The notes beneath the pieces are model-generated. The model was not told the DNA's origin, made no database searches, and saw nothing but the letters and a program-made list of their open reading frames with translations. DNA of 64,000 nt from Sulfitobacter sp. HGT1. GTDB lineage: Bacteria; Pseudomonadota; Alphaproteobacteria; Rhodobacterales; Rhodobacteraceae. Below are positions 39,380 through 57,171 of the stretch, in pieces. Where the stretch lies: contig NZ_BLWI01000001.1 in NCBI RefSeq assembly GCF_013282155.1, positions 372,001 through 436,000 of the forward strand, written 5' to 3'. Position 1 is the stretch's first letter; every line of letters starts with the position of its first letter. The position numbers were made by a program, and so were the translations under genes.

Positions 39380-39411
39380 CATAAAATCACAATGCAAGAG
39401 GAGGACTTGTA

Positions 39412-40272
39412 ATGATTGACTATGACGCTCTTATGGGGCGCACGTTCCCTGTTACCGAACATGCCTATACGCAAAAGGATACGATCCTTTATGCGCTGGG
39501 TCTGGGCCTTGGAACCGATCCGCTGTCCGCGTCGCATCTGCGTGCGACCTATGAAAACGCGCCGGGGTTCGGCGCTTTGCCTGCCATGGTCAACGTCTTG
39601 GCCTATCCGGGTTTCTGGGCGATGGACCCCAGCACCGGCCTGACGTGGCAGAAAATCCTTCACGGAGAGCAAAGCCTGACATTATACGCGCCGCTGCCTG
39701 CGTCCGGTGTGCTGCTGGGGGAAACGCGGATCACCGGCATTGTGGACAAAGGGGCGGGCAAGGGTGCGCTGATCTATTCCGAACGTATCGTCAGCGACAA
39801 GGCCACAGGTGCCAAGATCGCAAGGATCGTCAGCACCTCCTTTGCGCGGGGCGATGGCGGGTTTGGCGGGTCAGACGATACCGTTCGTCCGGTCCATCCC
39901 ATGCCCGAAACCGCGCCGGATGCCACCTTTGATTTCCGGACGCCCGAAAATGCAGCGCTGGTGTACCGCTTGTCGGGGGACATGAACCCGCTGCACGCGG
40001 ACCCTGAAATTGCACGGCAAGCCGGGTTCGACCGCCCGATCCTGCACGGGCTTTGTACGCTTGGCGTTGCATCATGGTCGATCACCGAAGCCTTGGCGGA
40101 CGGTGATTTTGCAGCGCTAACGCATCTGCAATTGCGGTTCTCGTCCCCCGTTTATCCCGGCGAAACCATCCGCACCGAGATGTGGCGCGACGGCAATGCC
40201 GTCAGTTTCCGCGCCCGTGTGGTGGAGCGGGATATCGTTGTTCTGAATAACGGCCTGGCGCGGCTTGGCTGA
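39412..40272 (+). CDS. MaoC-like enoyl-CoA hydratase
   Basis: A 286-residue double hot-dog protein like the hydratase-2 part of multifunctional enzyme 2. The hydratase-2 motif is YRLSGDMNPLHADPEIARQAGF with catalytic Asp and His, followed by RPILHGLCTLG. The N-terminal half is a degenerate copy with ATYENAPGFGALPAMVNVLAYPG. It hydrates 2-enoyl-CoA to the (3R)-hydroxy form, which pairs with the MFE-2-like SDR of the same island. GAGGA lies upstream. First gene of the five-gene unit to 45089. Confidence 0.92.
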   Translation: MIDYDALMGRTFPVTEHAYTQKDTILYALGLGLGTDPLSASHLRATYENAPGFGALPAMVNVLAYPGFWAMDPSTGLTWQKILHGEQSLTLYAPLPASGVLLGETRITGIVDKGAGKGALIYSERIVSDKATGAKIARIVSTSFARGDGGFGGSDDTVRPVHPMPETAPDATFDFRTPENAALVYRLSGDMNPLHADPEIARQAGFDRPILHGLCTLGVASWSITEALADGDFAALTHLQLRFSSPVYPGETIRTEMWRDGNAVSFRARVVERDIVVLNNGLARLG

Positions 40273-40305
40273 TCCGAAAATCGTTTGAAATCAAGGAGAG
40301 AGATG

Positions 40306-40713
40306 ATGGCTGACCGGCCCCTGCCGACCATTTATCCAGAAACGGAATTCTACTGGAACGGTGCAAAAGAGGGCAAGCTGTTGCTGAACAGCTGCCCGTC
40401 CTGTGACAAGGCGTATTTTCCGCCGCGCCCGTTTTGCCCGGTTTGCGGCAATCGCGATGTTGAAATCAAGCAGGCCAGCGGCAAGGGCCGGCTGTATTCC
40501 TATATCATCAACCACCTGCCTGCCCCCGGCTACGAGCCCCCCTTTACCGTCGCTGTCGTCATGCTGGACGAAGGCGTGAAAATGGTCGCGAATGTTCTGG
40601 ACTGCCCCGCCGACCCCGAGGCGCTGGTTCTTGATATGCCGCTCGAGGTCACCTTCGAGCAGCGCGGCGATGTTGCCATTCCCCAGTTCAAGCCCGCAGG
40701 AGGTGTCGCATGA
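40306..40713 (+). CDS. DUF35 (zinc ribbon plus OB-fold) acyl-CoA-associated protein
   Basis: A 135-residue protein with a rubredoxin-like zinc ribbon CPSCDKAYFPPRPFCPVCG (about 29-47) and a C-terminal OB fold (YSYIINHLPAPGYEPPFTVAVV). DUF35 proteins bind and position thiolase-like enzymes acting on acyl-CoA; here the thiolase follows with an ATGA overlap. Start: ATG at 40306 or the adjacent ATG at 40303; AAGGAG is better spaced for 40306. Confidence 0.93.
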   Translation: MADRPLPTIYPETEFYWNGAKEGKLLLNSCPSCDKAYFPPRPFCPVCGNRDVEIKQASGKGRLYSYIINHLPAPGYEPPFTVAVVMLDEGVKMVANVLDCPADPEALVLDMPLEVTFEQRGDVAIPQFKPAGGVA

Positions 40714-41855
40714 CCCGTGCATCCATAGCCATCGTCGGTGCCGCCGAAACCACGCGCATGGGCAAGGTCCCCGAACTTAGCCAGACCGGCCTGCATGCCG
40801 ATGCTGCGCTGAATGCCCTGGCCGATTGCGGTTTGACCCTTGCGGATATCGACGGCGTTGCGACCGCTGGTCATGACGTGGCCGAAATCATTCAATACCT
40901 TGGCATCACGCCCACGTGGTATGATGGCACATCGGTGGGGGGCTGTTCCTTTATCACGCTGGTGCGCCATGCGGCGGCGGCGATTGAAACGGGGCTGTGC
41001 AAGACGGTTCTGATCACCCACGGCGAAAGCGGGCGGTCTAACAATCGCAGCCATCGCCCGCTGTTCCCGTCGATGCAGCAGCAGGAATTTGAATCGATCT
41101 ACGGCCCGCTGTTCCCGCCATCACGCTTCACGCTTCCGGTGATGCGCAAGATGAAAGACGATGGTCTGACCGTGGAACAAATCGCGATGGTCGCCGTGGT
41201 GCAACGCGAATGGGCCGCACTTCACCCGCGCGCAACGGCACATGACCCGCTTACGGTCGATGATGTTCTGAACTCTAAAATGATCGCATATCCGTTCCGC
41301 AAACTGATGTGTTGTCTGGTCAGCGATGGCGGCGGCGCGTTGATCCTGACCAGCGCGGAACGGGCCAAGGATTTCCCGACCAAACCGGTTTACCTACGCG
41401 GCATGGGCGGCGAAAGCGCCGAAGGGCCGATGATCTCGCAGATGGAAAGCTTTTCGTCCTCCAAGGCCTTCCGCGTCTCTGGCAAGATGGCGTTCGAGAG
41501 TGCGGGCATCACCCATTCGGATGTCGATCACCTGATGATCTATGACGCCTTTGCGCATCTCCCGATCTACGGGCTTGAGGATCTTGGCTTTGTCAAACCG
41601 GGCGAAGGCGGGGCTTTCATCGCCGAGGGTCATACCCGCCCGGGTGGCGCATTGCCGTTGAACACCAATGGCGGCGGGTTGTCTTATATGCACTCTGGCA
41701 TGTACGGGATGTTCGCCTTGCAAGAAAGCGTGCGGCAGATGCGCGGCGTGTCGCCAGCGCAGGTCAAAGACGCAAAGTTGTCTTTGGTACACGGGGTCGG
41801 GGGGATGTTCTCGGCGGCGTCAACGGCGGTTCTGACGACGGAGGACCAGTGGTGA
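40710..41855 (+). CDS. SCP-x-type thiolase
   Basis: A 381-residue thiolase of the SCP-x/lipid-transfer group. The nucleophile is Cys79 in GTSVGGCSF. The second-half motifs are NTNGGGLSYMHSGMYG (in the place of NxxGG..GHPxG) and the C-terminal HGVGGMFSAASTAVL. This group usually handles branched, steroid-like or bulky 3-oxoacyl-CoA and acts in a complex with a DUF35 protein, present immediately upstream. Overlaps both neighbours. Confidence 0.92.
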   Translation: MTRASIAIVGAAETTRMGKVPELSQTGLHADAALNALADCGLTLADIDGVATAGHDVAEIIQYLGITPTWYDGTSVGGCSFITLVRHAAAAIETGLCKTVLITHGESGRSNNRSHRPLFPSMQQQEFESIYGPLFPPSRFTLPVMRKMKDDGLTVEQIAMVAVVQREWAALHPRATAHDPLTVDDVLNSKMIAYPFRKLMCCLVSDGGGALILTSAERAKDFPTKPVYLRGMGGESAEGPMISQMESFSSSKAFRVSGKMAFESAGITHSDVDHLMIYDAFAHLPIYGLEDLGFVKPGEGGAFIAEGHTRPGGALPLNTNGGGLSYMHSGMYGMFALQESVRQMRGVSPAQVKDAKLSLVHGVGGMFSAASTAVLTTEDQW

Positions 41856-42637
41856 GCTTTGCCGGAAAGACGGTTTGCGTATCGGGCGGCACCAGTGGCA
41901 TCAATCTGGGCATCGCGAGGCATTTCGCGCGGGCAGGGGCCAAGGTCTTTGTCTTTTCGCGCGATCCGGCCAAGGTCGACGCGGCGGTTGCCGAGTTGCG
42001 TGGCTTGGGGGCAGAGGCGCAGGGCTGTTCGGCTGATGTGCGCAGCGCTGACGCGGTATCGGATGCGGTTGGCCAATGTGTTGATGCCTTTGGACTGATC
42101 GACATTCTGGTGTCCGGTGCTGCCGGAAACTTTGTCGCAAGGGCGGCGGATATTTCGTCGAACGGGTTTCGCGCGGTGCTGGAGATTGACGTTCTGGGCA
42201 CCCATCACGTCATGCACGCCGCGTGGCCTCATCTGCGCAAACCGGGGGCCGCGGTGATCAACCTGTCTGCCGGTCAGGCCAGTGTCGCGATGATCGGGCA
42301 GGCCCATGTTTGCGCGGCCAAGGCAGGCGTGGACATGCTCACACGAACCCTTGCGCTGGAATGGGGCCCTCATGGTGTGCGGGTGAATTCCATCGTGCCG
42401 GGGCCGATTGGCGACACCGAAGGCGTCAAACGATTGATGCCCGATGCCGCGTCGCTGGAGGCCAAGATACAGTCCATTCCGCTGCGCCGCATGGGGGCAA
42501 CGCAAGACGTGGCTGATCTGTGTGATTTTCTATGCTCGGACAGGGCGGGATATATTACCGGCACTGTGATCCCTGTGGATGGCGGTGCTATCCTGAACCC
42601 CATGCCTACACGGATGGAGGCGTTTATTGATGGATAA
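41852..42637 (+). CDS. 2,4-dienoyl-CoA reductase-like SDR (DECR2 type)
   Basis: A 261-residue SDR. Rossmann motif SGGTSGINLGIARHFARAGAKVFVFSRD. The region AGQAHVCAAKAGVDMLTRTLALEWGP followed by VRVNSIVPGPIGDTEG matches peroxisomal dienoyl-CoA reductase. The usual SDR tyrosine is missing: YxxxK reads VCAAK, as expected for the DECR group. It would remove a double bond from an unsaturated acyl-CoA using NADPH. GTG 41852 is chosen because GGAGG is seven bases upstream and the start overlaps the thiolase stop (GTGA). Confidence 0.85.
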   Translation: MSFAGKTVCVSGGTSGINLGIARHFARAGAKVFVFSRDPAKVDAAVAELRGLGAEAQGCSADVRSADAVSDAVGQCVDAFGLIDILVSGAAGNFVARAADISSNGFRAVLEIDVLGTHHVMHAAWPHLRKPGAAVINLSAGQASVAMIGQAHVCAAKAGVDMLTRTLALEWGPHGVRVNSIVPGPIGDTEGVKRLMPDAASLEAKIQSIPLRRMGATQDVADLCDFLCSDRAGYITGTVIPVDGGAILNPMPTRMEAFIDG

Positions 42638-45089
42638 AGGGGTGCTTGCGGGCCTGCGGGTTCTGGATCTGACCGACCAGCGCGGCGTTTTGACGGGGCG
42701 GATGCTGGCGTGCATGGGCGCGGATGTGCTTCAGGTTGAACCCGCCACAGGGTCGACTGCCCGCGCCATGGCCCCATTTGACACGGACGGGGCGTCCTTG
42801 TTCTGGGCCGCCTATGGCGCAGGGCGGCGGTCGCTGGTGTTGGACCGTGACAGCGACCCCGCGCGGCTGATGGCGCTTGCGGCTGTTGCCGATGTGGTTC
42901 TGGAAAGCGGAGTGCCCGGGCGGGACGTATTCTTGGACACGGATGCGCTTTTGCAGGCCAACGCCGGTGTGGTGCATTCCATCGTGACGCCCTTTGGTCT
43001 GGACGGGCCGAAAGCGGGCTATGCCGATAGCGATCTCACGCTTTGGGCTGCGGGCGGGCCGCTTAAGCCAACCGAAAGTCAGGCCGGTATCCCGACCCGC
43101 GTGACCCTGCCGCAAGCCTATCATCATGCGGCGGCAGATGCGCTTTGCGGGATCATGGTCGCGCTTGAGGCGCGCAGGCGCGGCGGGCAGGGCCAGCGGG
43201 TCGTGACCAGCGCACAGGCGTCGGCCACGCAATGCACCCTGAGTTTGTCGATGGCGTCGGTGATCGGTCACCCCAATTACGTCTTCCGCGCCGAGGTGAA
43301 ATCAAAGAAGAAGCGCGAGCTTGACCTGTCAGGGTCGGGGTCACGAACGCAGCGGTCGAAATGGCCGGTCAAGGACGGGATCGTTGAGATGCACCTTGCC
43401 CTTGGTCCGGCGGCGGGGCGGTTCACCAATGCGCTGTTTACGCTGATGGCCGCGCGCGGGGCCTGTTCGCCCAAATTCGCCGCGTGGGATTGGGTCACGC
43501 TTCCTCCCAAGATCGAAAACGATGAAATCACGGACGAGGAAATGGAGCAGGCCCGCACGGAGGTCGCCGATTTCCTTGCCACCATGACCAAGCTTGAAGC
43601 CGTCGAGATGGCGTTGCAGCACCGTCTGATGCTGGCCCCCATCATGACCGTCGCGGATCTGGCCAGCAGCCCCCACGGCAAGGCGCGCGGCTTTTTGCAA
43701 CAGGTCGGCGCGTTGTCCTTGCCGGGAAAACTTGCGCTTGGCTTTGACGAAGGGTTTGCCCCGCTGCGCCCCGCACCTGGTCTGGGCGAGGGCGGTGCAG
43801 AGGTCGAGGCAGGTTGGCTTGCCAATCGTGATGCCGTCAGACCCTTTGCCGTGGCCCGCACGGTGACCAAAGTCGTGCGGCCCCTTGAAAATATCACCGT
43901 CCTGGATTTGTCCTGGGTGGTCGCAGGCCCGATGATTGGGCGCAATCTGGCTGATTTCGGCGCGCAGGTGATCCGTGTCGAAAGCGCCCGCAAACCCGAA
44001 GTTGCGCGTTTGACCGGCCCTTATCCCGAAGGGGTGCGCGATCTGAACCGGTCGGGGTTGTATGAAAACTGCAATGCAGGAAAGTCGGGTCTGACGCTTG
44101 ACCTGTCCCAGGATGCAGGGCGGGCGTTGGTCAAGGAACTGGCGGGAAAAGCCGACGTGTTGGTCGAAAGCTTTGCCCCCGGTCAGATGGACAAATGGGG
44201 GTTGGATTACGACACCTTGTCCCGGGACAATCCGGGCTTGGTCATGCTGTCGACATCGCTGATGGGGCAGTCGGGGCCTTGGTCTGCCTTGGCGGGTTTC
44301 GGCAATATCGGTGCCGCAATGTCGGGGCTTCAGGTGCTTGCCGGTCGCGATGTATCGGCCCCGATTGGCCCCTACGGACCCTACACCGATTTCGTGGCCC
44401 CGCGTCTGGCCCTTCCCGTTTTGCTGGCAGCCTTGGAGGTGAAGCGCCTGACAGGCAGGGGCAGGCAGTTGGATGTCAGCCAGGCCGAGGCGGGGATGCA
44501 GTTCATTGCCGAAGCCTTTGCCGATTATGCCGCGACCGGACGGGTGCCGGTTGCGGATGGCAACCGCGATCCGCACTGCGTCCCGAACGAAGTCTACCCC
44601 TGCATCGCGCCCGAGGGCGAAACTGCATGGGTTGCCGTATCTGCCACATCAGACGCCGCATGGATCGCCCTGCGTGACGAAACCGGGCTGGCGGCGCTGG
44701 CTGATCCGGCGTTCGAGACGCTGGAAGGCCGCCGCGCGGTCGAGGCGGAGATTGACACGATCCTTGCCGATTGGTGTCGGGGTCAACCCCCCGAGGCGGT
44801 GGAGTTGCGCCTCCAAGGGCGGGGTGTGGCGGCGCATGTTGTCGCGTCGCCTGCGGATTTGGCAGCCGATGCGCAGCTTGGCGCTTGGGGGCATTTCCAG
44901 ACCTTGCCGAGAACCGATGGCACGCCGGCCCATCACGAGGCCTGCCGTTTTCAACTGGGTCTGACGCCCGCCAAGACAGGGCGCGCGGCACCGGAATACG
45001 GGCGGGATAACCGTCAGATTTTGGCAGACTATCTGGGGCTGGATGCAGCGCAGATTGATGCGCTGGAACGGGACGGGGTTCTGACCTGA
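42630..45089 (+). CDS. Tandem CaiB/BaiF CoA-transferase (two-domain fusion)
   Basis: An 819-residue protein of two family III CoA-transferase domains, about 1-400 and 415-819. In the N-terminal domain the active-site region reads YADSDLTLWAAGG, keeping an Asp (about 135). In the C-terminal domain the corresponding region reads WSALAGFGNIGAAMSGL, where the expected Asp (GFD/GYD) is Gly. Family III enzymes are interlocked dimers; the fusion may form one pseudo-dimer with a single active site. ATG 42630 follows GGAGG by nine bases. Ends the maoC operon. Candidate substrate: the same acid handled by the hydratase, or transfer between pathway intermediates. Confidence 0.88.
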   Translation: MDKGVLAGLRVLDLTDQRGVLTGRMLACMGADVLQVEPATGSTARAMAPFDTDGASLFWAAYGAGRRSLVLDRDSDPARLMALAAVADVVLESGVPGRDVFLDTDALLQANAGVVHSIVTPFGLDGPKAGYADSDLTLWAAGGPLKPTESQAGIPTRVTLPQAYHHAAADALCGIMVALEARRRGGQGQRVVTSAQASATQCTLSLSMASVIGHPNYVFRAEVKSKKKRELDLSGSGSRTQRSKWPVKDGIVEMHLALGPAAGRFTNALFTLMAARGACSPKFAAWDWVTLPPKIENDEITDEEMEQARTEVADFLATMTKLEAVEMALQHRLMLAPIMTVADLASSPHGKARGFLQQVGALSLPGKLALGFDEGFAPLRPAPGLGEGGAEVEAGWLANRDAVRPFAVARTVTKVVRPLENITVLDLSWVVAGPMIGRNLADFGAQVIRVESARKPEVARLTGPYPEGVRDLNRSGLYENCNAGKSGLTLDLSQDAGRALVKELAGKADVLVESFAPGQMDKWGLDYDTLSRDNPGLVMLSTSLMGQSGPWSALAGFGNIGAAMSGLQVLAGRDVSAPIGPYGPYTDFVAPRLALPVLLAALEVKRLTGRGRQLDVSQAEAGMQFIAEAFADYAATGRVPVADGNRDPHCVPNEVYPCIAPEGETAWVAVSATSDAAWIALRDETGLAALADPAFETLEGRRAVEAEIDTILADWCRGQPPEAVELRLQGRGVAAHVVASPADLAADAQLGAWGHFQTLPRTDGTPAHHEACRFQLGLTPAKTGRAAPEYGRDNRQILADYLGLDAAQIDALERDGVLT

Positions 45090-45135
45090 ACGGCTGACCC
45101 GAACAGGAACCTTTGCGAACCGATAAACAACTTCT

Positions 45136-45171
45136 GCATTAGGGCCACGGGGAAATCCGTGGCCCTAATGC
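45136..45171. terminator. Bidirectional hairpin between convergent operons
   Basis: A perfect 15-bp stem: GCATTAGGGCCACGG (45136-45150) with CCGTGGCCCTAATGC (45157-45171), loop GGAAAT. It lies between the two-domain CoA-transferase and the leftward enoyl-CoA hydratase gene. No U-run on either side, so strength is uncertain though the structure is unmistakable. Confidence 0.7.
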
Positions 45172-45187
45172 GTCTCACATGCACCGC

Positions 45188-45985
45188 TTAGCGGAAGTCA
45201 AAGCGTGGGGCCTGCTTCTTGGTAAAGCGGTCGATTGCGTCTTTGTGATAGCTGCTCGACAGGCAAATGGCTTGCGCCTGTGCTTCAAGCTCAAGCAACG
45301 CGTTGCTGTCCAGTTCCATCGACCGTGCCGAAATCGCCTTGGTCATCGCAAAGGCGGTGCGCGAGGTGTCGCACATCATCCGCGCAATCGCTTGGGCACG
45401 GGGCAAAAGGTCATCTGCGGCAAGCACTTCCATGCAGATGCCCAGACGTTGGGCTTCTTCTGCGTGAACGGTGCGGCCCGTGTAGAACAATTCACGCGCC
45501 CGTTGCAGGCCGATCATCCGCGGCAACGAATAGAACAGGTTGCCATCCGGCACCGCCCCGACCTTGCAGAAGGACGCATTGAAGCTCGCCCTCTCGGACG
45601 CCAGAATAATGTCGCCGGTCAGCGCCAGACCCAGACCCGCGCCATAGGCAGGGCCATCGACCGCGACGATGACAGGCACCTGCAAGTCGCGCAGCAGCGT
45701 GATCCAGCGATGCAGATATTTCATCCGGGGCAGGATGTCTTCGGCCCCTGTCACCAGCCCGGCCTTGTGGTTGGCCAGCATCTTTTTCAGGTCACCGCCG
45801 GCGCAGAATACGCCGCCTGTTCCGGTCAGAATGACGGCCTGAAGATCGGCATCGACCGACAGGTCCTGCACGGCGCTGGACAGACCTTCGCGCATTGCGT
45901 CAGACAAGGCGTTCCGAGAGGCGGGTTCGTTCATGGTCAGCGTCACGACGCCGCCATCGCGGGTGATTTGCAAAGCGTCGGTCAT
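45188..45985 (-). CDS. Enoyl-CoA hydratase/isomerase (crotonase family)
   Basis: A 265-residue crotonase. Oxyanion-hole segments are GVFCAGGDLKKM and VDGPAYGAGLGLALTGDIILAS. Of the two crotonase glutamates, the first position (GxGxxL) reads GAGLGLAL, and the second (usually a Glu in PELGL..GxG) reads CKVGAVPDGNLFY. The usual hydratase glutamates are therefore not obvious and an isomerase or other crotonase activity is possible. Last gene of the leftward ACAD-ligase-crotonase operon, overlapping the ligase by ATGA. Confidence 0.87.
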   Translation of the reverse strand: MTDALQITRDGGVVTLTMNEPASRNALSDAMREGLSSAVQDLSVDADLQAVILTGTGGVFCAGGDLKKMLANHKAGLVTGAEDILPRMKYLHRWITLLRDLQVPVIVAVDGPAYGAGLGLALTGDIILASERASFNASFCKVGAVPDGNLFYSLPRMIGLQRARELFYTGRTVHAEEAQRLGICMEVLAADDLLPRAQAIARMMCDTSRTAFAMTKAISARSMELDSNALLELEAQAQAICLSSSYHKDAIDRFTKKQAPRFDFR

Positions 45986-47586
45986 GTCGCAGCTTCCTTT
46001 GTGTCTTCGGACCCCAGGCTTTGCAGAACCTGTGCCTTGATCGTCATTTTATCGAGCTTGTTGGTCGCGGACAGGGGCAGTTGCCCTTGCCAGATGGTCA
46101 TGCCGCGCGGGGCCTTGTAATGGGCGATGCGGTCGCGACAAAAGGCGATCAGCTCGGCTTCGGTTGCGGTCTTGCCATCGTGCAGGGCGACGGCGGCATA
46201 GACCATTTCACCCCATTTCGCATGCGGCACACCGAAAACGGCGGCCTGCGCGACTGCTGGGTGTTTGCTCAGCGCGTTTTCAGTCTCGATCGGATAGACG
46301 TTTTCACCGCCCGAGATGATCATTTCCTTGGTGCGGCCTGCGATGGTCAGATAGCCGTCTGCGTCCATCACGCCCGCATCGCCCGTGTGGAAAAACCCGC
46401 CGCGCATGGCATGGGCGGTTTCTTCGGGGCGGTTCCAATAGCCGTTCATCACCTGCGGCCCGCGCACCACAATTTCGCCGGGCATTCCGACAGGCACGGG
46501 GGTGTCGTCGGCATCCACAATGCGCAAATCCGAATAGAGAATCGGGCGGCCCACGGTGCTGAGCTTGTCCAGCATCGGATTGCCCGGAATATGATCCGCC
46601 GGTTCAAGAACCGACAGGACTGGCGATGTTTCGGTCAGCCCATAGCCCTGACAAAAGGTGATGCCCGGAATGGCTGCAATCGCGCGCTCCATCAAGGTGA
46701 CGGGCATCGGGGACGCCCCATATGTCAGCACGCGGATCGACGAAAAATCAAACTCGGGGAAGCGCGGATGGTTCATCACCATGTTCAGCATGGTCGGGAC
46801 CATGGTCATCGTGGTGATCTTTTGCGCTTCGATCATGCGCAGGGTATCGACGACTTCGAATTTCGGTTGCACGACCATCGTGGTGCCGTAAGCCAGCGCC
46901 GTGAACACACGGCTGCCCGTGCCAAGGTGGAACAACGGCCCCGACAGCAGCAAAACATCATCCTGCCGGTAGCCATACAGATGGCCCGATCCGGTGGCAT
47001 TCACGAGAAAGTTCGAATGGCTGAGCATGACGCCTTTGGGCTGACCCGTGGTGCCTGACGTATAGAACAGGATCATCGTGTCGTCAGACCGGCTGGCACT
47101 CTCGTCAAAGGCATCGTCGGCGACTTCGGGGGCCTCGGCGATCAGGGTGTCATAGTGCAGCGTGCCGTCGGGCAGATCGTCGGCCGGTTGATCCCAGTCG
47201 GCAAGGATCAGCGTGTGCAGCGACGGGCATAGCGCCAACAGGTCAGCGGCTTGTTCACGGAAATGACGGTCGAAGATCAAGATGGCGGGGCTCGCATCGC
47301 CGATCACGCCGACCATTTCCTCGACCGACAGACGGTGATTGATCGGCACCGAAATCGCGCCGATCATCGACGGAACCACGTACATCTCGACGATCCAATG
47401 CGAGTTCAGACCCAGATAGGCAACACGGTCACCCGGCCTGACGCCCAGCTTTTCCAACTGCCAGGCAATGGCATGCACGCGGCGGTTCATCTGTGCCCAG
47501 CTGTAATCGCGGCCCTCGAAATGGGTGGCGCGCCAGTTGGGGCGTTGATACGCGTATTTGCGTATGAAATCGGGGTAACGGATCAT
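45982..47586 (-). CDS. Acyl-CoA ligase (AMP-binding)
   Basis: A 534-residue FadD-type adenylating enzyme. P-loop FYTSGTTGQPKGV (near 180), A8/hinge region GYLTIAGRTKEMIISGGENVYPIE, and C-terminal Lys in SATNKLDKMTIKAQ in place of the usual PRTxxGKI. It activates a carboxylic acid to its CoA ester. ATG 47586 is preceded by GGAGGA and overlaps the acyl-CoA dehydrogenase stop (ATGA). Confidence 0.92.
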   Translation of the reverse strand: MIRYPDFIRKYAYQRPNWRATHFEGRDYSWAQMNRRVHAIAWQLEKLGVRPGDRVAYLGLNSHWIVEMYVVPSMIGAISVPINHRLSVEEMVGVIGDASPAILIFDRHFREQAADLLALCPSLHTLILADWDQPADDLPDGTLHYDTLIAEAPEVADDAFDESASRSDDTMILFYTSGTTGQPKGVMLSHSNFLVNATGSGHLYGYRQDDVLLLSGPLFHLGTGSRVFTALAYGTTMVVQPKFEVVDTLRMIEAQKITTMTMVPTMLNMVMNHPRFPEFDFSSIRVLTYGASPMPVTLMERAIAAIPGITFCQGYGLTETSPVLSVLEPADHIPGNPMLDKLSTVGRPILYSDLRIVDADDTPVPVGMPGEIVVRGPQVMNGYWNRPEETAHAMRGGFFHTGDAGVMDADGYLTIAGRTKEMIISGGENVYPIETENALSKHPAVAQAAVFGVPHAKWGEMVYAAVALHDGKTATEAELIAFCRDRIAHYKAPRGMTIWQGQLPLSATNKLDKMTIKAQVLQSLGSEDTKEAAT

Positions 47587-48737: not shown

Positions 48738-48794
48738 CGTGTGGTTCCTCCCTCATGTCGTGGGTCAAAAACTTTGACGGTATGAGGAAAGTCT

Positions 48795-48825
48795 AATTAG
48801 CTTGCATATTATAATCAAGCTAATT
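48795..48825. promoter_or_regulatory. MarR-type operator, copy B
   Basis: AATTAGCTTG (48795-48804) and CAAGCTAATT (48816-48825), perfect 10-bp arms, spacer 11 bp, midway between the divergent acyl-CoA dehydrogenase and SDR genes. Shares TAGCTTG-N11-CAAGCTA with copy A at 39355. Confidence 0.8.
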
Positions 48826-48858
48826 ATAACTGCCATAAATCATCTGGAGGAGACAGGT

Positions 48859-49761: not shown

Positions 49762-49831
49762 TTTGGTTGGCGAGAGCGGTCAAAAGCACTAGACTGGCGT
49801 ACGGACTTTGGACGCCGATAGACAGAAGGGT

Positions 49832-50311
49832 ATGCTGAGCTTGGAAGAAGTTGCGACACCAGTGCACAAACAGACTTCGTTGAGCGAGGATAACAATCCT
49901 ATTTATCAGGATATCGCGCGTTTTCGTGCGATCTTGTTCGACTCGATGTTGAAGCCCCATGACATGACCATGTCGCAAGGCTGGGTTATGGTGCATCTGG
50001 TGCGCGAGAACGGCTTGCGTCAGTCTGAACTGGCCGAACGGCTCGAGGTGGCAACGGTTACCACCTCCAAGCTGATCGACCGGCTCGAGGCGCGCGGCTA
50101 TGTCGAGCGCCGTGCAGACCCCGAAGATCGCAGGTCCAACCGTGTCTACGCAACGCCCCAAGCAAAGTCGCTGGTCAAGATTATGACCCGCACCATTTTT
50201 GAGGTGGACGAGATCGCAAACGAAGGCATCTCGGAAGCCGAGCTTGAGACGACCCTCAAGGTGCTGCGCAAGATGCGCAACAATCTGCGGCGCGGCTTGA
50301 GCAAGCGATAA
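49832..50311 (+). CDS. MarR-family regulator
   Basis: A winged-helix MarR protein, 159 residues from ATG 49832. Core: MTMSQGWVMVHLVRENGLRQSELAERLEVATVTTSKLIDRLEARGYVERRADPEDRRSNRVYATP, the recognition helix and wing of the family. C-terminal dimer helices follow. The start is uncertain: AGAAGGG is too close to this ATG, and a TTG at 49808 is the other candidate. Adjacent to copy B of the palindrome and the only regulator in this island, so it is the likely repressor, with an acyl-CoA or the acid itself as effector. Confidence 0.9.
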   Translation: MLSLEEVATPVHKQTSLSEDNNPIYQDIARFRAILFDSMLKPHDMTMSQGWVMVHLVRENGLRQSELAERLEVATVTTSKLIDRLEARGYVERRADPEDRRSNRVYATPQAKSLVKIMTRTIFEVDEIANEGISEAELETTLKVLRKMRNNLRRGLSKR

Positions 50312-50366
50312 AAACAAGCAGCGGGTTTCCCGCGCTTGGTTAAATATTCCTGAAAGGACCCGTGAG

Positions 50367-51521
50367 ATGCAGCAAGAGGCATCCGCACCCCCGCTGGCGG
50401 GGCTGCGCATTATTGAATTCGCCGGCATCGGTCCCGGTCCCTTTGCGGGCATGATGCTTGCTGACATGGGGGCCGAAGTGATCAGGATTGAACGCCCCAA
50501 TGCCGGATCCCCGACAGGGCAAGGCGCGCACGAGCTGGATTTCCTTGCCCGTGGGCGCAAGTCCATCGCGCTGAACATGAAGACACCCGGTGCTGTCGAT
50601 CTGGCCTTGCGTCTGGTCGAAACGGCAGACGGGTTGATCGAAGGGTTCCGGCCCGGCGTGATGGAACGTTTGGGCCTTGGCCCTGACGTTTGCCGCGCCC
50701 GCAATCCGCGTCTGGTCTATGGTCGGATGACTGGCTGGGGGCAGGAGGGGCCGGTCTCCAAAACTGCTGGTCACGATCTGAATTACATCGCCCTGTCTGG
50801 TGCGCTTTGGGCCTCTGGCGAAGCCGGCCGTGCGCCGAGCTTTCCGTTGAACCTTTTGGGTGATTTCGGCGGCGGTGGCATGTTTCTGGCCTTTGGTATG
50901 GTGACGGGGCTGCTTAAGGCCGCAAGAACCGGTTCGGGCGACGTTGTTGATGCGGCGATTGTTGACGGCACCGCCGCGCTGATGAGCATGATTTACAGCC
51001 GCCGCGCCATGGGGCTGTGGCGTGATGAACGTGCGTCCAATGCGTTGGATGGCGGCGTGCCTTGGTATGGCGTCTATGAATGTGCGGATGGCGGATGGGT
51101 GACCATCGGTGCCCTTGAGCCGCAGTTCTGGGCGGTGTTGCTGGACCGGCTTGGCCTGACGGCGCAGGAAATGGGCGACCGCGCGGATCGGGGCACCTGG
51201 CCTGCGATGCGTGCCCGGCTGACCGAGGTTTTCAAAAGCCAGCCCCGCGATCATTGGGTTGCCCTGTTGCAAGATACCGATGCGTGTTTCGCCCCGGTTC
51301 TAAGCCCGGCCGAAGCCCCCGGCCATCCGCACAACCAAGCCCGCGGGATATTCTCGGAAGGGGTGGTGCAGCCGATGCCTGCGCCGCGTTTCACCGATGC
51401 CAACACCCCGTTGCCCACAACGCCGCCCGCCCCCGGTGCCGACAGCCGCGCCATCCTGACGGATTTGGGATTGGCTGCCGATGAAATCGACGCGCTCTTT
51501 AGTGGCGGCGCGGTGACGTAA
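50367..51521 (+). CDS. Alpha-methylacyl-CoA racemase-like (CaiB fold)
   Basis: A 384-residue family III fold protein. The segment TAGHDLNYIALSG contains His136 and LNLLGDFGGGG contains Asp166, thirty residues apart like the catalytic pair of the mycobacterial racemase (His126/Asp156). This argues for racemase rather than transferase chemistry. It would interconvert 2R and 2S methyl-branched acyl-CoAs, letting a stereospecific dehydrogenase act. AAAGGA precedes the ATG; it starts 55 bp after the MarR gene. Confidence 0.9.
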   Translation: MQQEASAPPLAGLRIIEFAGIGPGPFAGMMLADMGAEVIRIERPNAGSPTGQGAHELDFLARGRKSIALNMKTPGAVDLALRLVETADGLIEGFRPGVMERLGLGPDVCRARNPRLVYGRMTGWGQEGPVSKTAGHDLNYIALSGALWASGEAGRAPSFPLNLLGDFGGGGMFLAFGMVTGLLKAARTGSGDVVDAAIVDGTAALMSMIYSRRAMGLWRDERASNALDGGVPWYGVYECADGGWVTIGALEPQFWAVLLDRLGLTAQEMGDRADRGTWPAMRARLTEVFKSQPRDHWVALLQDTDACFAPVLSPAEAPGHPHNQARGIFSEGVVQPMPAPRFTDANTPLPTTPPAPGADSRAILTDLGLAADEIDALFSGGAVT

Positions 51522-51542
51522 ATCACATAAGGGAGAAACCTC

Positions 51543-52520
51543 ATGACTTTGCCTGCAATTCTACAAAACCTGCGGCTGCCGCTGATTGCGAGCCCCTTGT
51601 TCATCATCTCGAACCCCGATCTTGTCATCGCGCAATGCAAGGCGGGCATTGTCGGGTCTTTTCCTGCGCTGAATGCGCGCGAAAAGGACGGGCACAGTCT
51701 GGATGCCTGGCTGACGCAGATCAAAGAGGCGCTGGACCGCCACAACCAGGAGAACCCGGATTCCCCTGCCGCACCTTATGCCGTGAACCAGATCGTTCAT
51801 AAGTCCAACAGCAGGCTCGATCGTGACATCGAGATTTGCGTGAAGCACGAAGTGCCGGTTTGGATCACCTCGCTTGGGGCGCGGGTCGAGGTCAACGAGG
51901 CCGCACATTCCGCCGGTGGTGTTGTGTTGCACGATGTGATCAACAACCGCTTTGCCCATAAAGCCATCGAAAAAGGGGCCGACGGTCTGGTCGCTGTGGC
52001 TGCCGGTGCCGGTGGCCATGCCGGTGCGCTGTCGCCTTTTGCGTTGGTTCAAGAAATCCGCAGCTGGTTCGATGGCCCCTTGTTTCTGTCCGGTGCGATT
52101 GCACGGGGTGATTCCATTCTGGCAGCGCTCGCGATGGGGGCGGACGGCGGCTATGCAGGTTCGGCCTTTATCGCCACGGATGAGGCGAATGCGGCTGAGG
52201 GCTACAAACGGATGATCGCCGAGAGCGGTGCCGACGACATCGTTTATTCAAACCTGTTTACCGGCGTTTGGGGCAACTATCTGAAACCGTCAATCGCGGC
52301 AGCGGGGATGAATCCGGATGCGTTGGAACAGTCCGACCCGTCCAAAATGAACTTTGCCGAAGATCGCGAAAAACCCAAAAGCTGGAAAGAGATCTGGGGG
52401 TCGGGTCAGGGCATTGGCGCGGTTTCGGATGTGGTACCAACGTCGGAAATGGTCGCCCGGCTCAAGCGTGAATTTGATGCGGCACGCCAGCGACTGGACA
52501 AAACGCTTAGCACCTACTGA
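51543..52520 (+). CDS. Nitronate monooxygenase-family FMN flavoprotein
   Basis: A 325-residue TIM-barrel flavoprotein of the 2-nitropropane-dioxygenase family. Features: LPLIASPLFIISNPDLVIAQCKAGIVGSFPALNAR, GADGLVAVAAGAGGHAG, and the phosphate-binding FLSGAIARG...AMGADGGYAGSAF. Some members act on acyl-CoA ring-cleavage intermediates or as enoyl reductases, not on nitronates. Here, between a racemase and a TRAP transporter, such a redox step is plausible. GGGAGAA precedes the ATG. Activity unresolved. Confidence 0.88.
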   Translation: MTLPAILQNLRLPLIASPLFIISNPDLVIAQCKAGIVGSFPALNAREKDGHSLDAWLTQIKEALDRHNQENPDSPAAPYAVNQIVHKSNSRLDRDIEICVKHEVPVWITSLGARVEVNEAAHSAGGVVLHDVINNRFAHKAIEKGADGLVAVAAGAGGHAGALSPFALVQEIRSWFDGPLFLSGAIARGDSILAALAMGADGGYAGSAFIATDEANAAEGYKRMIAESGADDIVYSNLFTGVWGNYLKPSIAAAGMNPDALEQSDPSKMNFAEDREKPKSWKEIWGSGQGIGAVSDVVPTSEMVARLKREFDAARQRLDKTLSTY

Positions 52521-52557
52521 CACTATTTAGCGGGCTTTGCTGGGAGGCGTCCGAATA

Positions 52558-52590
52558 AATAGATTGCTAGATAATAGTTACCATGCTATT
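52558..52590. promoter_or_regulatory. Weak inverted repeat before TRAP dctP
   Basis: AATAGATTG (52558-52566) and CATGCTATT (52582-52590): seven of nine arm positions pair, spacer 15 bp. It differs in spacing from the two TAGCTTG palindromes, so another regulator or chance is possible. Confidence 0.3.
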
Positions 52591-52646
52591 TAATATTTAA
52601 TACAAGTCGGGTGACATCATACCCGCAACATAAGGGAGGAGAGACT

Positions 52647-53705
52647 ATGAAGAAATCTATTCTAGGGGCCGTAATGGCTGCATCAGTTTCGGTTTTGGCC
52701 ATGGCGGCCCACGCGGAAACGACGCTGATCGCAAACGAACCTGGCCCGAACCGCGGCGTGCGCGCCGAGGCCGTGAACTACATCGCAGATCAGATCGCCG
52801 AGCGCACAAATGGCGAAGTGAAGGTCGAGCAGAACTGGGGCGGAGCCCTGTTCAAGACGAATGCCGCGCTTCAGTCGATTTCGGTTGGTGTTGCCGACAT
52901 GGGCGTGCTGATCGGGGCCTATGTCGCCTCGGAATTCCCCGAGCTGCAAATGGCGGGTCTGCTTTTGAACAAGCCCGGTCACCCTTGGGTGATGATGCAG
53001 GCCGTCTATGAATTGTTCACGACCAATGAACGCATTCAAGAGCGCCTTGACGAGATGAACCTTGTCTATCTTGCGCCGTTTTCCTTGTCGCCGGCCATTC
53101 TGGCCTGTCGCGGCGATGGCATCCGGTCGATCGAGGATATCAAGGGGGCCAAGATTGCCCATACCGGTTCGTCCGGTGACGTGCTTGCCGCATTGGGTGG
53201 CAATATGGTGAGCATGCCGATTTATGATGTTTACCAATCCATGGAAACCGGCCTTGTCGATTGCTCGGTTACCTATGCGTATTACGCTGTCGCATCGAAG
53301 CTGAACGAAGAAATCGATACGATGACCGAACTGCGCTATTCGACGATTACCAGCCTGGGTACGGTCATCAACAAGGACACTTTCGAGCGCCTGACGCCCG
53401 AACAGCAAGAAGCGATCCTGGGGATCGGTCCGGACATGATGGATTTCTACGGCGAAAAGCTGGAAGAAGCCGATGCAAAGGCGCTTGTGACCCTTTCGAC
53501 GGGCGACGATGCTGTTGATTTCGTGAAACTGTCGGATGCCGACTATGATGCGATGGACGTGGCCGGTGCGCCGATGTTTGACAACTGGTACGCTGACGCC
53601 GAAGCAGTTGGCACCGATGGTAAGGCGCTTTTGGCCGAACTTTACGGGCTGATGGACAAGTGGACACTGGTCATGGAGACCGAAGGTCTGCCTTGGAAGC
53701 GTTAA
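52647..53705 (+). CDS. dctP: TRAP transporter substrate-binding protein
   Basis: A 352-residue DctP-family periplasmic protein, signal peptide ending near AAHA-ETT. Family segments: WGGALFKTNAALQSISVGVADMGVL, AGLLLNKPGHPWVMMQAVYELF, IKGAKIAHTGSSGDVLAALGG (in the place of the usual Arg-bearing loop), and YQSMETGLVDCSVT. The loop lacks the canonical RVP-type arginine (reads IAHTGSS), so the bound solute may not be a simple dicarboxylate. GGGAGGAG upstream. Confidence 0.9.
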   Translation: MKKSILGAVMAASVSVLAMAAHAETTLIANEPGPNRGVRAEAVNYIADQIAERTNGEVKVEQNWGGALFKTNAALQSISVGVADMGVLIGAYVASEFPELQMAGLLLNKPGHPWVMMQAVYELFTTNERIQERLDEMNLVYLAPFSLSPAILACRGDGIRSIEDIKGAKIAHTGSSGDVLAALGGNMVSMPIYDVYQSMETGLVDCSVTYAYYAVASKLNEEIDTMTELRYSTITSLGTVINKDTFERLTPEQQEAILGIGPDMMDFYGEKLEEADAKALVTLSTGDDAVDFVKLSDADYDAMDVAGAPMFDNWYADAEAVGTDGKALLAELYGLMDKWTLVMETEGLPWKR

Positions 53706-53789
53706 TGATCGTCTGCACGGTCGCGTGACGATTGCCCTGTCCCTTTGGGGGGCAGGGCAGCGTTTATCCATACTCCACTGGAGAACATC

Positions 53790-54284
53790 ATGTTGAAACG
53801 TCTTGAGTTTACGCTCGATACGCTTGCAGCGGTGGCCGTGGTGCTGCTTTGCTTGCTTATTACAGCCAACATTATCGCCCGCGAATTCCTGATGGTCGGC
53901 ATCCCCGACAGCATCATCATGGTCCGCGAGCTGATGGTACCTGCGATCCTGTTTCCGCTGGCCGCAGCCACGGCGAAACGCGCGCATGTCGCCGTAGAAT
54001 TCATCGCCAATCACTTCCCCGACGGGGTCAACCGCTGGATTGCCGTGCTGGCCACCGTCATCGGTCTGACCATCGTGACAATCCTTCTGTCCGCCGGCTG
54101 GTTCGAACTGGCCAAGAATTTCGCAAGCGGTGCGCATTACGGCGGAGAGCTTTTGCTTCCGAAATGGCCAAGCCGCGCCCTGTTCGTGCTGGCGATTGGC
54201 GCATTCTGGTTGCGATTGATCCACGTGCTTTGGGTCGATCTGAAAGCCGCAGTGACGGGTACGCCGGCACCGGCAGAACTTTAA
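53790..54284 (+). CDS. dctQ: TRAP transporter small membrane subunit
   Basis: A 164-residue DctQ protein with four helices, starting MLKRLEFTLDTLAAVAVVLLC; characteristic IIAREFLMVGIPDSIIMVRELM after helix 1. ATG 53790 follows GGAG by six bases; upstream codons belong to a leader. Eighty-four bases after dctP, 12 before dctM. Confidence 0.9.
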   Translation: MLKRLEFTLDTLAAVAVVLLCLLITANIIAREFLMVGIPDSIIMVRELMVPAILFPLAAATAKRAHVAVEFIANHFPDGVNRWIAVLATVIGLTIVTILLSAGWFELAKNFASGAHYGGELLLPKWPSRALFVLAIGAFWLRLIHVLWVDLKAAVTGTPAPAEL

Positions 54285-54296
54285 GGAATTACCATT

Positions 54297-55637
54297 ATGG
54301 ATCCGGCAACCATCGGCTATATCGCATGTGCGATTGTGCTTCTCCTTTTGGCAATACGCATTCCGATTGCCTATGCCATTGGCGGCGTCGCCGTCGTGGC
54401 AATCTTTATCGTATTCGCAACGCGCACCGGCACATTCATGCCAGAGCGCGCGATGTGGACAACCTTGTCGCTCGCGTTTTCGTCCAGTTTCGATCTGGTC
54501 CACAGCTATGACCTGTCGATGATCCCCTTGTTCATCGCATTGGGTCACGTGGCGTACAAAGCGGGCATCACCACCGAGATTTACGAGGCCGCGCGTGTCT
54601 GGCTGGTGCGTTTGCCCGGCGGGGTCGCGATCGCGTCTGTCGCAGGCTGCGGCGGATTTTCAGCGATTTCGGGGTCGTCCATTGCCTGCGCGTCCACCAT
54701 GGGGCGGATCTGCACCCCCGAAATGCTGAAGCTCAATTATGACCCGCGTCTTGCCACTGCATGTGTGGCGGCGGGCGGCACGCTGGGGTCGCTTATCCCG
54801 CCGTCGGTCTTGTTCATCATCTACGGCATTTTCACAGAAAGCTCGATCAGCGAATTGTTTATGGCGGGCTTCCTGCCGGGCGTTTTGTCGATGCTTGGCT
54901 ATGCTTTGGTGATTGTGCTTTGGGTGCGTCGTTCGCCCGAAATTGCACCCGTGCCCGATCAGGTCTTTTCGATGAAAGAGAAAGTCCGGGCGGCATTGCG
55001 GTCATGGCCGGCTGTGCTGCTTTTCACTGTCGTTATCGGCGGTATCTATGGCGGCATCTTTACCGCAACCGAAGCCGCGGCCCTGTCGCTGCTGTTTGCC
55101 ACGCTTCTTGGGATGGTGCGGGGCTTTATCAAGGTAAAGGACATCATACCGATGCTGCGCGAGACGATGGCCACCACGGGCGCGATCTTCTTTATCGCGG
55201 CTTGTGCGAAGATCTTTGTGTCGCTGATCGCCTTGACCGGATTGTCCAACAGCCTTGTCTCGGCTTTGGGGGATTCAAGCATCGGGCCCTGGATGTTCAT
55301 CGCTCTTGTTTGCCTGATCTATCTGGTGCTGGGGATGTTCCTTGACCCGGTAGGGATCATGGTTCTGACCTTGCCTTTGATGATCCCGATGGTCGAAAGC
55401 TTTGACATGAACCTGATCTGGTTCGGGGTGGTGATCGTCAAACTGCTCGAGATCGGGTTGATCACCCCTCCGGTCGGGCTGAACGTCTTTGTGCTGGCAA
55501 GCGTGCTGGAAGGAAAGGTCGAGATCGGCGAGATTTTCGCAGGTCTGTGGCGTTTTCTGGCAATCGATATCGTTGTTCTGGCGCTTTTGGTGATGATCCC
55601 GGCCATCTCGCTTATCCTTCCCATGTCGATGAATTGA
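54297..55637 (+). CDS. dctM: TRAP transporter large membrane subunit
   Basis: A 446-residue DctM permease: LSMIPLFIALGHVAYKAG, GGFSAISGSSIACASTMGRI, the IPPSVLFIIYGI loop and EIGLITPPVGLNVFVLASV. It is somewhat longer than the other dctM genes here because of an extended N-terminal loop with a soluble-looking FATRTGTFMPERAM stretch. Seven bases before the ligase gene. Confidence 0.94.
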   Translation: MDPATIGYIACAIVLLLLAIRIPIAYAIGGVAVVAIFIVFATRTGTFMPERAMWTTLSLAFSSSFDLVHSYDLSMIPLFIALGHVAYKAGITTEIYEAARVWLVRLPGGVAIASVAGCGGFSAISGSSIACASTMGRICTPEMLKLNYDPRLATACVAAGGTLGSLIPPSVLFIIYGIFTESSISELFMAGFLPGVLSMLGYALVIVLWVRRSPEIAPVPDQVFSMKEKVRAALRSWPAVLLFTVVIGGIYGGIFTATEAAALSLLFATLLGMVRGFIKVKDIIPMLRETMATTGAIFFIAACAKIFVSLIALTGLSNSLVSALGDSSIGPWMFIALVCLIYLVLGMFLDPVGIMVLTLPLMIPMVESFDMNLIWFGVVIVKLLEIGLITPPVGLNVFVLASVLEGKVEIGEIFAGLWRFLAIDIVVLALLVMIPAISLILPMSMN

Positions 55638-55644
55638 GGACCGT

Positions 55645-57171
55645 ATGATGCATTTCAATCCACCCGTCGTTGATGGTGAAAAGCTCCTGAATTTCGGGGC
55701 CGCGCTTCAGGAAAATGCGGCAACACACGGTGAAAAACCCGCTTTGATCGTCGGGGACCGGACCATTAGCTGGGCCGAATTCGGGGCGATGGTGGCGCAG
55801 GTCACGGGGCAGCTTGTGGCCCAGGGTGTGGGGCAGGGCGATACGGTTGCGTCGCTGTCTGAAAATTCGGTCGAGCATGTTGTGCTGTATTGCGCGGTGG
55901 TGGCCAGCGGTGCCTGTATCGTGCCGCTGCCGTTTTCCGCCACACCCGACGCGCTGGCGCTGATGATGGCCGACAGCAACGCGGACCTGCTGTTTGTGTC
56001 ATCGACGCAGGCCGATATCGGGCGCGGTCTGCCTGTGAAACAGAGTGTCGATCTGGACGGGTTGATGGCATGGGCGGCGGATGCGGCCCCTGCTAAGCCA
56101 GCGCAAGTGAATCCCGATGATCTGTTCAACATCATCTATTCGTCGGGCACCACGGGAACACCCAAAGGCATCATTCACGACCACCGCTTTCGGTCGCGCC
56201 AGTTGAACAGAATTACCAACTTCGGCCTGACCGGGGCCGACCGTCTGGTGATCTCGACGCCGATCTATTCCAACACCACGCTGTTCGGGATGCTGCCGAC
56301 CCTGTCTTTGGGCGCGACTTTGATCGTGATGCCAAAGTTCAACGCCGCAGGGTTTCTGAAACTCAGCGCTGATCTAAAGCCGACCCACGCGGTTCTGGTA
56401 CCGGTACAACTGATGCGCCTGATGGCAGAGCCAACGTTCGATGACTTTGATCTGACCAGCTATCGGTGCAAATTCTCGACCTCGGCCCCGTTGCCCAGCA
56501 CCTTGATCGCACAGGTGATGGAACGCTGGCCCGGCAACCTGATCGAAGTGTACGGCATGACCGAAGGCGGTATTTCCACCGCGCTGAATTGCGAAGCATT
56601 CCCCGACAAATGGGACACGGTCGGGCGCTTGGGCGAAGGCGTCGACATGCGGGTGATCGACGATCAGGGCAAGGAATTGCCCAAAGGATCCTTTGGCGAA
56701 TTGATCGGCCGGTCTGCGTCGATGATGCGGAACTATCATAACGCGCCGGAGAAAACCCGAGAACTGCTTTGGACCGACGCGCACGGCAATCACTTTATCC
56801 GGTCTGGCGATATGGGCCGGATTGATGAAGACGGGTTTGTGCATCTGATGGACCGCAAGAAAGACATGATCATCTCGGGGGGCTTCAACATCTATGCTGC
56901 CGATCTTGAGGCCGTCTTGCGCCAGCATGGGGATGTCGCCGATGCGGCTGTCATCGCCATCCCCAGCGATGCCTGGGGCGAGACGCCGCTTGGTTTTGTC
57001 GTGCTGCGTGCGGGGGCCACTGCGGATGCCCAACAGGTGCTTGAATTCGCCAACGCCAAGCTGGGGAAAACGCAGCGCTTGTCGAACATCGTTTTGCTGG
57101 ACGATCTGCCGCGCAGCGAAATCGGCAAGGTCCTGAAAAAGGATCTGCGCGAAGCCTACCAGCCCGGCTGA
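55645..57171 (+). CDS. Acyl-CoA ligase (AMP-binding)
   Basis: A 508-residue adenylating enzyme with P-loop IYSSGTTGTPKGI, YGMTEGG, hinge GFVHLMDRKKDMIISGGFNIYAADLE and catalytic Lys in LPRSEIGKVLKKDLRE. It follows dctM by 7 bp, so import and CoA activation of the same acid are coupled. GAGGA precedes two adjacent ATGs (55645, 55648). The other ligase of the island at 45982-47586 may act on a later or related acid. Confidence 0.93.
   Translation: MMHFNPPVVDGEKLLNFGAALQENAATHGEKPALIVGDRTISWAEFGAMVAQVTGQLVAQGVGQGDTVASLSENSVEHVVLYCAVVASGACIVPLPFSATPDALALMMADSNADLLFVSSTQADIGRGLPVKQSVDLDGLMAWAADAAPAKPAQVNPDDLFNIIYSSGTTGTPKGIIHDHRFRSRQLNRITNFGLTGADRLVISTPIYSNTTLFGMLPTLSLGATLIVMPKFNAAGFLKLSADLKPTHAVLVPVQLMRLMAEPTFDDFDLTSYRCKFSTSAPLPSTLIAQVMERWPGNLIEVYGMTEGGISTALNCEAFPDKWDTVGRLGEGVDMRVIDDQGKELPKGSFGELIGRSASMMRNYHNAPEKTRELLWTDAHGNHFIRSGDMGRIDEDGFVHLMDRKKDMIISGGFNIYAADLEAVLRQHGDVADAAVIAIPSDAWGETPLGFVVLRAGATADAQQVLEFANAKLGKTQRLSNIVLLDDLPRSEIGKVLKKDLREAYQPG

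Follow-up and report, generated by a model that had tools for sequence, protein, structure and literature searches.

Positions 39412–57171 of the 64,000-nucleotide stretch analysed here (the window: Sulfitobacter sp. HGT1, contig NZ_BLWI01000001.1, positions 372,001 to 436,000) hold an island of 16 genes for acyl-coenzyme A (CoA) metabolism and transport. We read it, with a probability of about 0.6, as a horizontally shared, MarR-controlled catabolic unit whose substrate would be a carboxylic acid of small to medium size, 2-methyl-branched and probably partly unsaturated. The open frames run from the maoC start at 39412 to the lig2 stop at 57171 and form three runs. A left run on the forward strand (maoC, duf35, thio, sdrA, caiB2) and a middle run on the reverse strand (acad, lig1, ech) have frames that overlap or almost touch; a right run on the forward strand comprises sdrB, marR, rac and nmo, then dctPQM and lig2. 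Pfam and NCBIfam recognize a MaoC/multifunctional enzyme 2 (MFE-2) hydratase, DUF35 (ChsH2-type Zn ribbon/OB), a thiolase-like protein, a short-chain dehydrogenase/reductase (SDR) like 2,4-dienoyl-CoA reductase (DECR), a tandem CaiB protein, a crotonase, two AMP ligases, an acyl-CoA dehydrogenase, a second SDR, MarR, a CaiB-family racemase, a flavoprotein like nitronate monooxygenase (NMO) and FabK, and DctP/Q/M of a tripartite ATP-independent periplasmic (TRAP) transporter. All 16 genes lie where a preliminary description of this DNA had placed them, in the families it had named, and dctPQM supply the importer it had ascribed to the island. That description also called the island MarR-linked; marR does belong to it, but lies in its interior, and maoC is immediately preceded by yaeQ (38722–39270).

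The predicted enzyme activities draw on comparison with solved structures, which covered nine of the 16 proteins (relatives are named as listed there). The closest solved relative of rac is MCR (1x74), which scores 386 bits, whereas chains without racemase in their name reach 132 at most. His136 and Asp166, the residues singled out in the preliminary description, align with MCR together with Glu251, and the three columns are kept in 6/6 other copies read; we take the catalytic residues of MCR to be His126 and Asp156. For acad the best relatives are the mitochondrial long-chain acyl-CoA dehydrogenase (LCAD) 8w0t (401 bits) and 2pg0 (398 bits), all remaining chains scoring 264 or less. LCAD accepts 2-methyl substrates. 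Glu244 of acad lies in the motif PQERL; 8w0z has Gln at that place. The product of maoC is of the two-domain MFE-2 type and closest to peroxisomal multifunctional enzyme 2 (1s9c, 196 bits), and its D190 and H195, presumably the catalytic Asp/His motif of hydratase 2, are likewise kept in all six other copies read. The best solved relatives of sdrB, in which YSAAK and GAGRGIG are present, are the MFE-2 dehydrogenases 2et6, 1gz6 and 1zbq (199 bits, against 116 for BbsD).

The chemistry predicted from these families is that of known branched-chain oxidation, and the peroxisomal-type logic proposed earlier is supported at the level of sequence. With the mammalian peroxisomal system (alpha-methylacyl-CoA racemase [AMACR], MFE-2/D-bifunctional protein and SCPx) and LCAD, the island shares a racemase, hydratase 2, (3R)-hydroxyacyl-CoA dehydrogenase, LCAD-type dehydrogenase and thiolase-fold enzyme. 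It differs in having the MFE-2 activities on two genes, a dehydrogenase instead of the peroxisomal oxidase, a DUF35-linked YDAF enzyme rather than an HDCF one, its own importer and a MarR gene.

In the pathway that we propose, the acid would be imported through the TRAP system and activated by lig1 or lig2, or by CoA transfer through caiB2. The racemase would set the 2-methyl centre, and acad would form a 2-methyl-2-enoyl-CoA, which maoC would hydrate R-specifically. After oxidation of the 3-hydroxyl by sdrB, the thio/duf35 pair would cleave the product into propionyl-CoA and a shorter acyl-CoA. The DECR-like sdrA and the crotonase ech would handle double bonds of the substrate, and their presence suggests a double-bonded substrate in most hosts. 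Propionyl-CoA would enter the methylmalonyl pathway; two genome matches over cut-off to TIGR00641 (methylmalonyl-CoA mutase family) would give it a fate. MarR would keep the promoters shut until an acyl-CoA intermediate, the putative inducer, releases it.

New in this analysis is a shared operator, TAGCTTGcaAATnATtATCAAGCTA, a 25-base imperfect palindrome (10 of 12 pairs) found before maoC (39355) and in the gap between acad and sdrB (48798). With up to three mismatches allowed, these are its sole matches in the 3.82-Mb genome (reversed control, 0), and the pattern has no match in 100 shuffles of the window. When the window is scored with a matrix made of 11 sites, none of them dctP-type, a site before dctP (52564) ranks third, at 20.8 against 11.2 for the next, and this dctP-type site is close in G023, G066, G275 and L004. 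The site before sdrB recurs with up to six mismatches in nine of the 10 other loci read (G023, G066, G275, G450, L004, L005, G613, G710 and G485), the last three, genomes of another family, having a diverged operator with 5–6 mismatches. The marR gene adjoins rac in 12 of 13 other mapped loci with rac at 52% or more (exception, G388). From the position of the sites and their co-conservation, we infer that the island's MarR binds these operators. Our best reading is that the island genes are co-regulated through them, and the co-regulation on which the preliminary description had staked its claim is what the shared operators point to. The operator could serve as a reporter for finding the inducing acid. 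Because it occupies 48798–48822, sdrB probably starts at ATG 48859 rather than TTG 48802; the start of lig1 is probably 47586.

The island recurs in one piece in a second genome of the genus (G023), where a single block corresponding to window positions 39335–57151 aligns at 92.6% between different flanks. It is thus a discrete accessory unit and, as the differing flanks suggest, probably a movable, horizontally shared one; the conserved block and the absence of the operator from shuffled sequence both argue against a chance arrangement. Full-length caiB2 occurs in two of 62 genus genomes (G000 and G023). At E 1e-100 or better, caiB2 is matched in five of 394 family genomes, four with the fused gene and the island and a fifth (G378) with two separate genes and no further island match in 32 kb; caiB2 matches at the loci L004 and L012 are cross-hits to rac and are disregarded. 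The same four genomes with fused full-length caiB2 at 70% or more are the ones, among 394, that have rac at 77% or more. G066 and G275 carry all 16 genes in the order of the window. The copy at L004 (Thalassovita litoralis) lies at the end of a contig and comprises the island's right half; that at L005 is incomplete, and L012 has maoC, acad, sdrB, marR and rac at 37–66%.

At the level of the class, thio is found at E 1e-120 in 22 of 385 genomes, its own included. Three genomes of one other family (G613, G710 and G485; thio at about 81%, sdrB at 70%) have 14 of the 16 genes, arranged otherwise: dctPQM come first, followed by the divergent groups ech-lig1-acad and sdrB-marR-rac-maoC-duf35-thio-sdrA-lig2. 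Five of the remaining 18 genomes were read (G773, G568, G462, G676 and G547; thio 67–72%), and in each of them duf35 and thio form a pair without close relatives of the remaining island genes in its vicinity. A nine-gene core (maoC, duf35, thio, lig1, acad, sdrB, marR, rac and lig2) is present in all eight copies read across their full span (G000, G023, G066, G275, G450, G613, G710 and G485, with a different order in the last three). With one regulator gene, one importer and this core, the island is a bounded, testable unit for possible methyl-branched acid use by marine alphaproteobacteria.

Regarding movement, no common stretch of 11–13 bases, direct or inverted, was found between 38951–39420 and 57101–57900, and caiB2 was not matched at E 1e-60 in any of 72,556 plasmid records, nor was a match confirmed in viral contigs. 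An empty-site test through the flanking genes proved unusable: the PAS histidine kinase beside the island (57230–59287) was detected at E 1e-150 in a single genus genome out of 60; the right-hand neighbour may therefore itself be accessory.

Several observations weigh against our reading. The two sites that the operator pattern matches are also those from which it was built. The dctP-type site deviates in its half-sites; G402 has a weak version with 8 mismatches, and the three other-family copies retain no more than a half-site (6 mismatches, 3/3). The site before maoC is weak in G275 (7 mismatches), and L012, the sole exception among the 10 loci read before sdrB, has no operator site (10 mismatches). 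Promoter-like matches are no commoner than in shuffles (4 vs 6.3). Four more family genomes have rac at 68–71% without a fused caiB2: G402 (sdrB-marR-rac-nmo-dctPQM), G337 (marR-rac-nmo on a 6-kb contig), G296, where the stretch read shows marR-rac alone, and G388, where it shows rac alone. The synteny across Rhodobacteraceae that the preliminary description had proposed as a check is complete in G066 and G275, but sdrA, ech and dctPQM are absent from the G450 locus (the rest of that genome was not searched), where the racemase alignment crosses a TAG. Likewise caiB2 and nmo are missing at the locus in the three other-family copies (the rest of these genomes was not searched), so that the complete pathway claimed earlier is plausible but is not carried gene for gene by every copy. 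A single acid would not need two ligases plus a transferase for its activation, and dctP has no close TRAP relative (best, 74 bits). The remaining points concern the active site of thio, which had been called an SCP-x thiolase: its motif is YDAF in place of the HDCF of sterol carrier protein 2 (SCP-2) thiolases, and the Cys of HDCF thiolases falls on Ser75, not Cys79, in three MAFFT alignments (three modes, four HDCF sequences, one partial).

The closest solved relative of thio is the thiolase 4u4e (384 bits), followed by Ltp2 (153), 9myr (140; its YDCY motif leads us to guess that it is possibly Sal) and BbsB (113). The motif is HDCF in SCP-2 thiolases, YDHF in Ltp2, with Tyr344, and YDCY in Sal, where Gly replaces the thiolase Cys (PMC12329534). 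Homologues of thio were collected at E 1e-30 with at least 70% coverage of thio and one best place per locus, whereby HDCF thiolases are excluded; eight of the 44 rows repeat the same DNA, which leaves 36 distinct sequences. The Tyr of YDxF is kept in 36/36, and Cys79 in 20/20 of those at 52% identity or more and 1/16 below. The nucleophile place falls on Gly78 when counted back by hand from the following helix, and on Cys79 by phmmer against 7yvy. With YDAF for HDCF and Cys79 not firmly at the nucleophile place, the strict SCP-x identity is not upheld.

Both thiolysis and retro-aldol cleavage are candidate modes for the thio/duf35 pair. As a retro-aldolase it would split the product of MaoC, a 3-hydroxy-2-methylacyl-CoA, to give propionyl-CoA and an aldehyde, like Sal/Shy and Ltp2/ChsH2 on steroid side chains, leaving sdrB to serve another turn or intermediate. 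The invariant Tyr at the catalytic-base place of YDHF and YDCY, the alignment to Ser75, the adjacency of maoC, duf35 and thio, and the scores of Ltp2 and the YDCY protein, both higher than that of the BbsB thiolase, all speak for this. We nevertheless regard it as rather unlikely. Cys79 is kept in the closer homologues and aligned by phmmer with the Cys of 7yvy, and the second catalytic residue of the aldolases is absent from thio, which has Ala at the place of Sal Cys304 and no Tyr in the region of Ltp2 Tyr344. Thiolysis is favoured because sdrB is steadily present (8/8 fully read copies) and the island has no aldehyde dehydrogenase. Related sets elsewhere bear on the question from both sides. 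Aquabacterium humicola (L007) combines acad, two lig1-like ligases, sdrA, ech, sdrB and nmo with an HDCF thiolase, as Variovorax (L030) does lig1, sdrA, acad, ech and sdrB, which suggests that thiolysis ends this kind of pathway; the Variovorax cluster additionally holds a YDAF relative at 44%, as if the two had different jobs, and YDAF enzymes may thus have another one. We offer as a tentative and doubtful proposal that YDAF, DUF35-linked enzymes form a separate C–C cleaving thiolase-fold class between SCP-2 thiolases and steroid aldolases, specialized for alpha-methyl-branched CoA esters, and that the island is a dedicated marine pathway for a class of acid without a described bacterial route. 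The odd active site of thio could be used to test how thiolases and aldolases diverged within this fold.

Another system with a DUF35-linked thiolase, the bbs operon (BbsEF, BbsAB), raises the possibility that a substituted succinate or another methyl-branched diacid is oxidized in a Bbs-like manner; caiB2 would then move CoA from the succinyl-CoA product to the incoming diacid as BbsEF does with benzylsuccinate. The C half of caiB2 is most similar to a benzylsuccinate CoA-transferase subunit (189 bits; the runner-up scores 136), and the fused pair has an Asp, Asp588, in the C half with none at the aligned N-half place, just as one Bbs partner has it; residues of this type are presumably catalytic. 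TRAP systems often carry dicarboxylates. We think this improbable: caiB2 is missing at the three other-family loci, sdrB is nearer MFE-2 than BbsD and is not of the BbsC/D type, the hydratase is of a different type, BbsB (7pxp) has HDAF where thio has YDAF, and the bbs scheme is not known to have a place for a racemase. Degradation of a sterol or bile-acid side chain seems very improbable indeed, and nothing found favours either the cyclic or the bile-acid substrate considered earlier. The island does join MaoC, DUF35 and a thiolase fold, as do ChsH1-ChsH2/Ltp2 and Shy/Sal, sharing with them the catalytic Tyr of YDxF, and AMACR acts on the sterol C25 methyl. It differs in its separate two-domain MaoC of MFE-2 type, in a DUF35 protein with a four-Cys ribbon (Cys 37, 40, 51 and 54) rather than the Cys3His1 of Shy, in the missing second aldolase residue, in the presence of sdrB and in its TRAP importer. 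None of 13 genome matches to the IpdE2 model lies over the cut-off; 14 control genomes also gave none, so this search has no positive control, and other ring-cleavage genes were not searched.

Among systems resembling our proposed 2-methyl-branched acid pathway, a seven-gene cluster of Cupriavidus necator SHC 2-3 (L074) matches the island in one run: sdrB 57%, maoC 45%, ligase 29%, acad 53%, thiolase 43%, duf35 38% and racemase 49%. In the 20.9 kb searched it has no counterpart of marR, the TRAP genes, caiB2, sdrA or nmo, and its thiolase has Met at the place of Cys79 and the motif YDHF. Plasmid quartets of thiolase, SDR, acyl-CoA dehydrogenase and AMACR in Rhodobacterales (Rhodobacter sp. CZR27 and Pseudosulfitobacter sp. 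DSM 107133) have by annotation the same four reaction types, with racemases 58% and 55% identical; their thiolase is annotated as an acetyl-CoA acyl/acetyltransferase, and they lack a DUF35, MarR or TRAP gene. A search of openly licensed papers, among them PMC11321319, PMC12329534 and PMC6850023, found no description of this gene set or order, in keeping with the earlier failure to match it to a named pathway. In Alcanivorax, growth on pristane is reported to be accompanied by FadAB proteins, and the word 'racemase' occurs 0 times in the main text (PMC6850023).

Table 1. Features of the island and its boundaries, in window coordinates; enzyme functions are predicted from sequence.
Feature	Position	Strand	Remarks
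Operator site 1 (TAGCTTGCAAATCATTATCAAGCTA)	39355..39379	+	before maoC; overlaps promoter-like hexamer pair 39359-39387
maoC, (R)-specific enoyl-CoA hydratase 2 (predicted)	39412..40272	+	best solved relative MFE-2 hydratase 1s9c; D190/H195
duf35, Zn-ribbon/OB partner of thiolase-fold enzyme (predicted)	40285..40713	+	Cys 37, 40, 51, 54
thio, thiolase-fold C-C cleaving enzyme (predicted)	40710..41855	+	Y278DAF, His328, His361; Cys79 near thiolase nucleophile place, not firmly at it
sdrA, 2,4-dienoyl-CoA reductase-like SDR	41849..42637	+	PRK07576 above cut-off; absent at G450 locus
caiB2, fused tandem class III CoA-transferase	42627..45089	+	Asp588 in C half only; absent at other-family loci
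Strong hairpin, likely two-way terminator	45136..45171	.	between convergent caiB2 and ech; read by eye
ech, crotonase-family hydratase/isomerase	45188..45985	-	family match; absent at G450 locus
lig1, acyl-CoA ligase	45982..47586	-	534 aa from ATG 47586; overlaps ends of ech and acad
acad, LCAD-type acyl-CoA dehydrogenase	47583..48737	-	Glu244 in PQERL
Operator site 2	48798..48822	+	divergent acad/sdrB promoter region
sdrB, MFE-2-like (3R)-hydroxyacyl-CoA dehydrogenase	48859..49761	+	open reading frame listed from 48802
marR, MarR-family regulator	49808..50311	+	family match; adjoins rac
rac, alpha-methylacyl-CoA racemase	50367..51521	+	His136/Asp166/Glu251
nmo, FMN flavoprotein of nitronate monooxygenase/FabK group	51543..52520	+	absent at other-family loci
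Operator-like site 3	52564..52588	+	before dctP; third best matrix score in window
dctP, TRAP solute-binding protein	52647..53705	+	open reading frame listed from 52611
dctQ, TRAP small permease	53790..54284	+	open reading frame listed from 53745
dctM, TRAP large permease	54297..55637	+	family match
lig2, second acyl-CoA ligase	55645..57171	+	family match
Hairpin, likely terminator	57181..57218	.	after lig2; read by eye; block common with G023 stops at 57151

Attempts to name the substrate from individual proteins were indecisive. The closest relatives of lig1 are, as named, a fatty-acyl-CoA synthase (315 bits) and a feruloyl-CoA synthetase (314 bits), and the 42 distinct solved TRAP sequences matched, the best at 74 bits, led to no ligand assignment. 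The solved relatives of nmo are FabK-like chains at 66 bits or less; nmo matched 90 plasmid records and was rejected as a pathway marker: in Sinorhizobium it has phosphate genes as neighbours, and six further plasmid stretches that we read have it with other acyl-CoA genes. On plasmid pAltI4 of Alteromonas sp. I4 (L122, 8424–24575), an AMACR, a nitronate-monooxygenase family gene, acyl-CoA genes, a TonB receptor and a GMC oxidoreductase stand together.

A further YDAF thiolase (57%) lies on plasmid pISP0 of Sphingomonas sp. MM-1 (L094, 3170–13137), in one run with a ferredoxin, a P450, alcohol and aldehyde dehydrogenases, two MaoC proteins, a CoA-transferase open reading frame of about 768 aa, an SDR and DUF35; this run could serve the oxidation of a terpenoid allylic methyl, followed by the same cleavage. 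Elsewhere in the Sulfitobacter sp. HGT1 genome (C13:12291–12410), a stretch of 37 residues shares 78% identity with thio; the surrounding 18 kb hold no further close match to the island, and the stretch may be a fragment or what is left of another copy. The 64-kb window as a whole is rich in importers, with four TRAP large permeases and one TctA tripartite tricarboxylate permease (18271–19806, 30082–31338, 32569–33948, 54297–55637 and 60750–62036).

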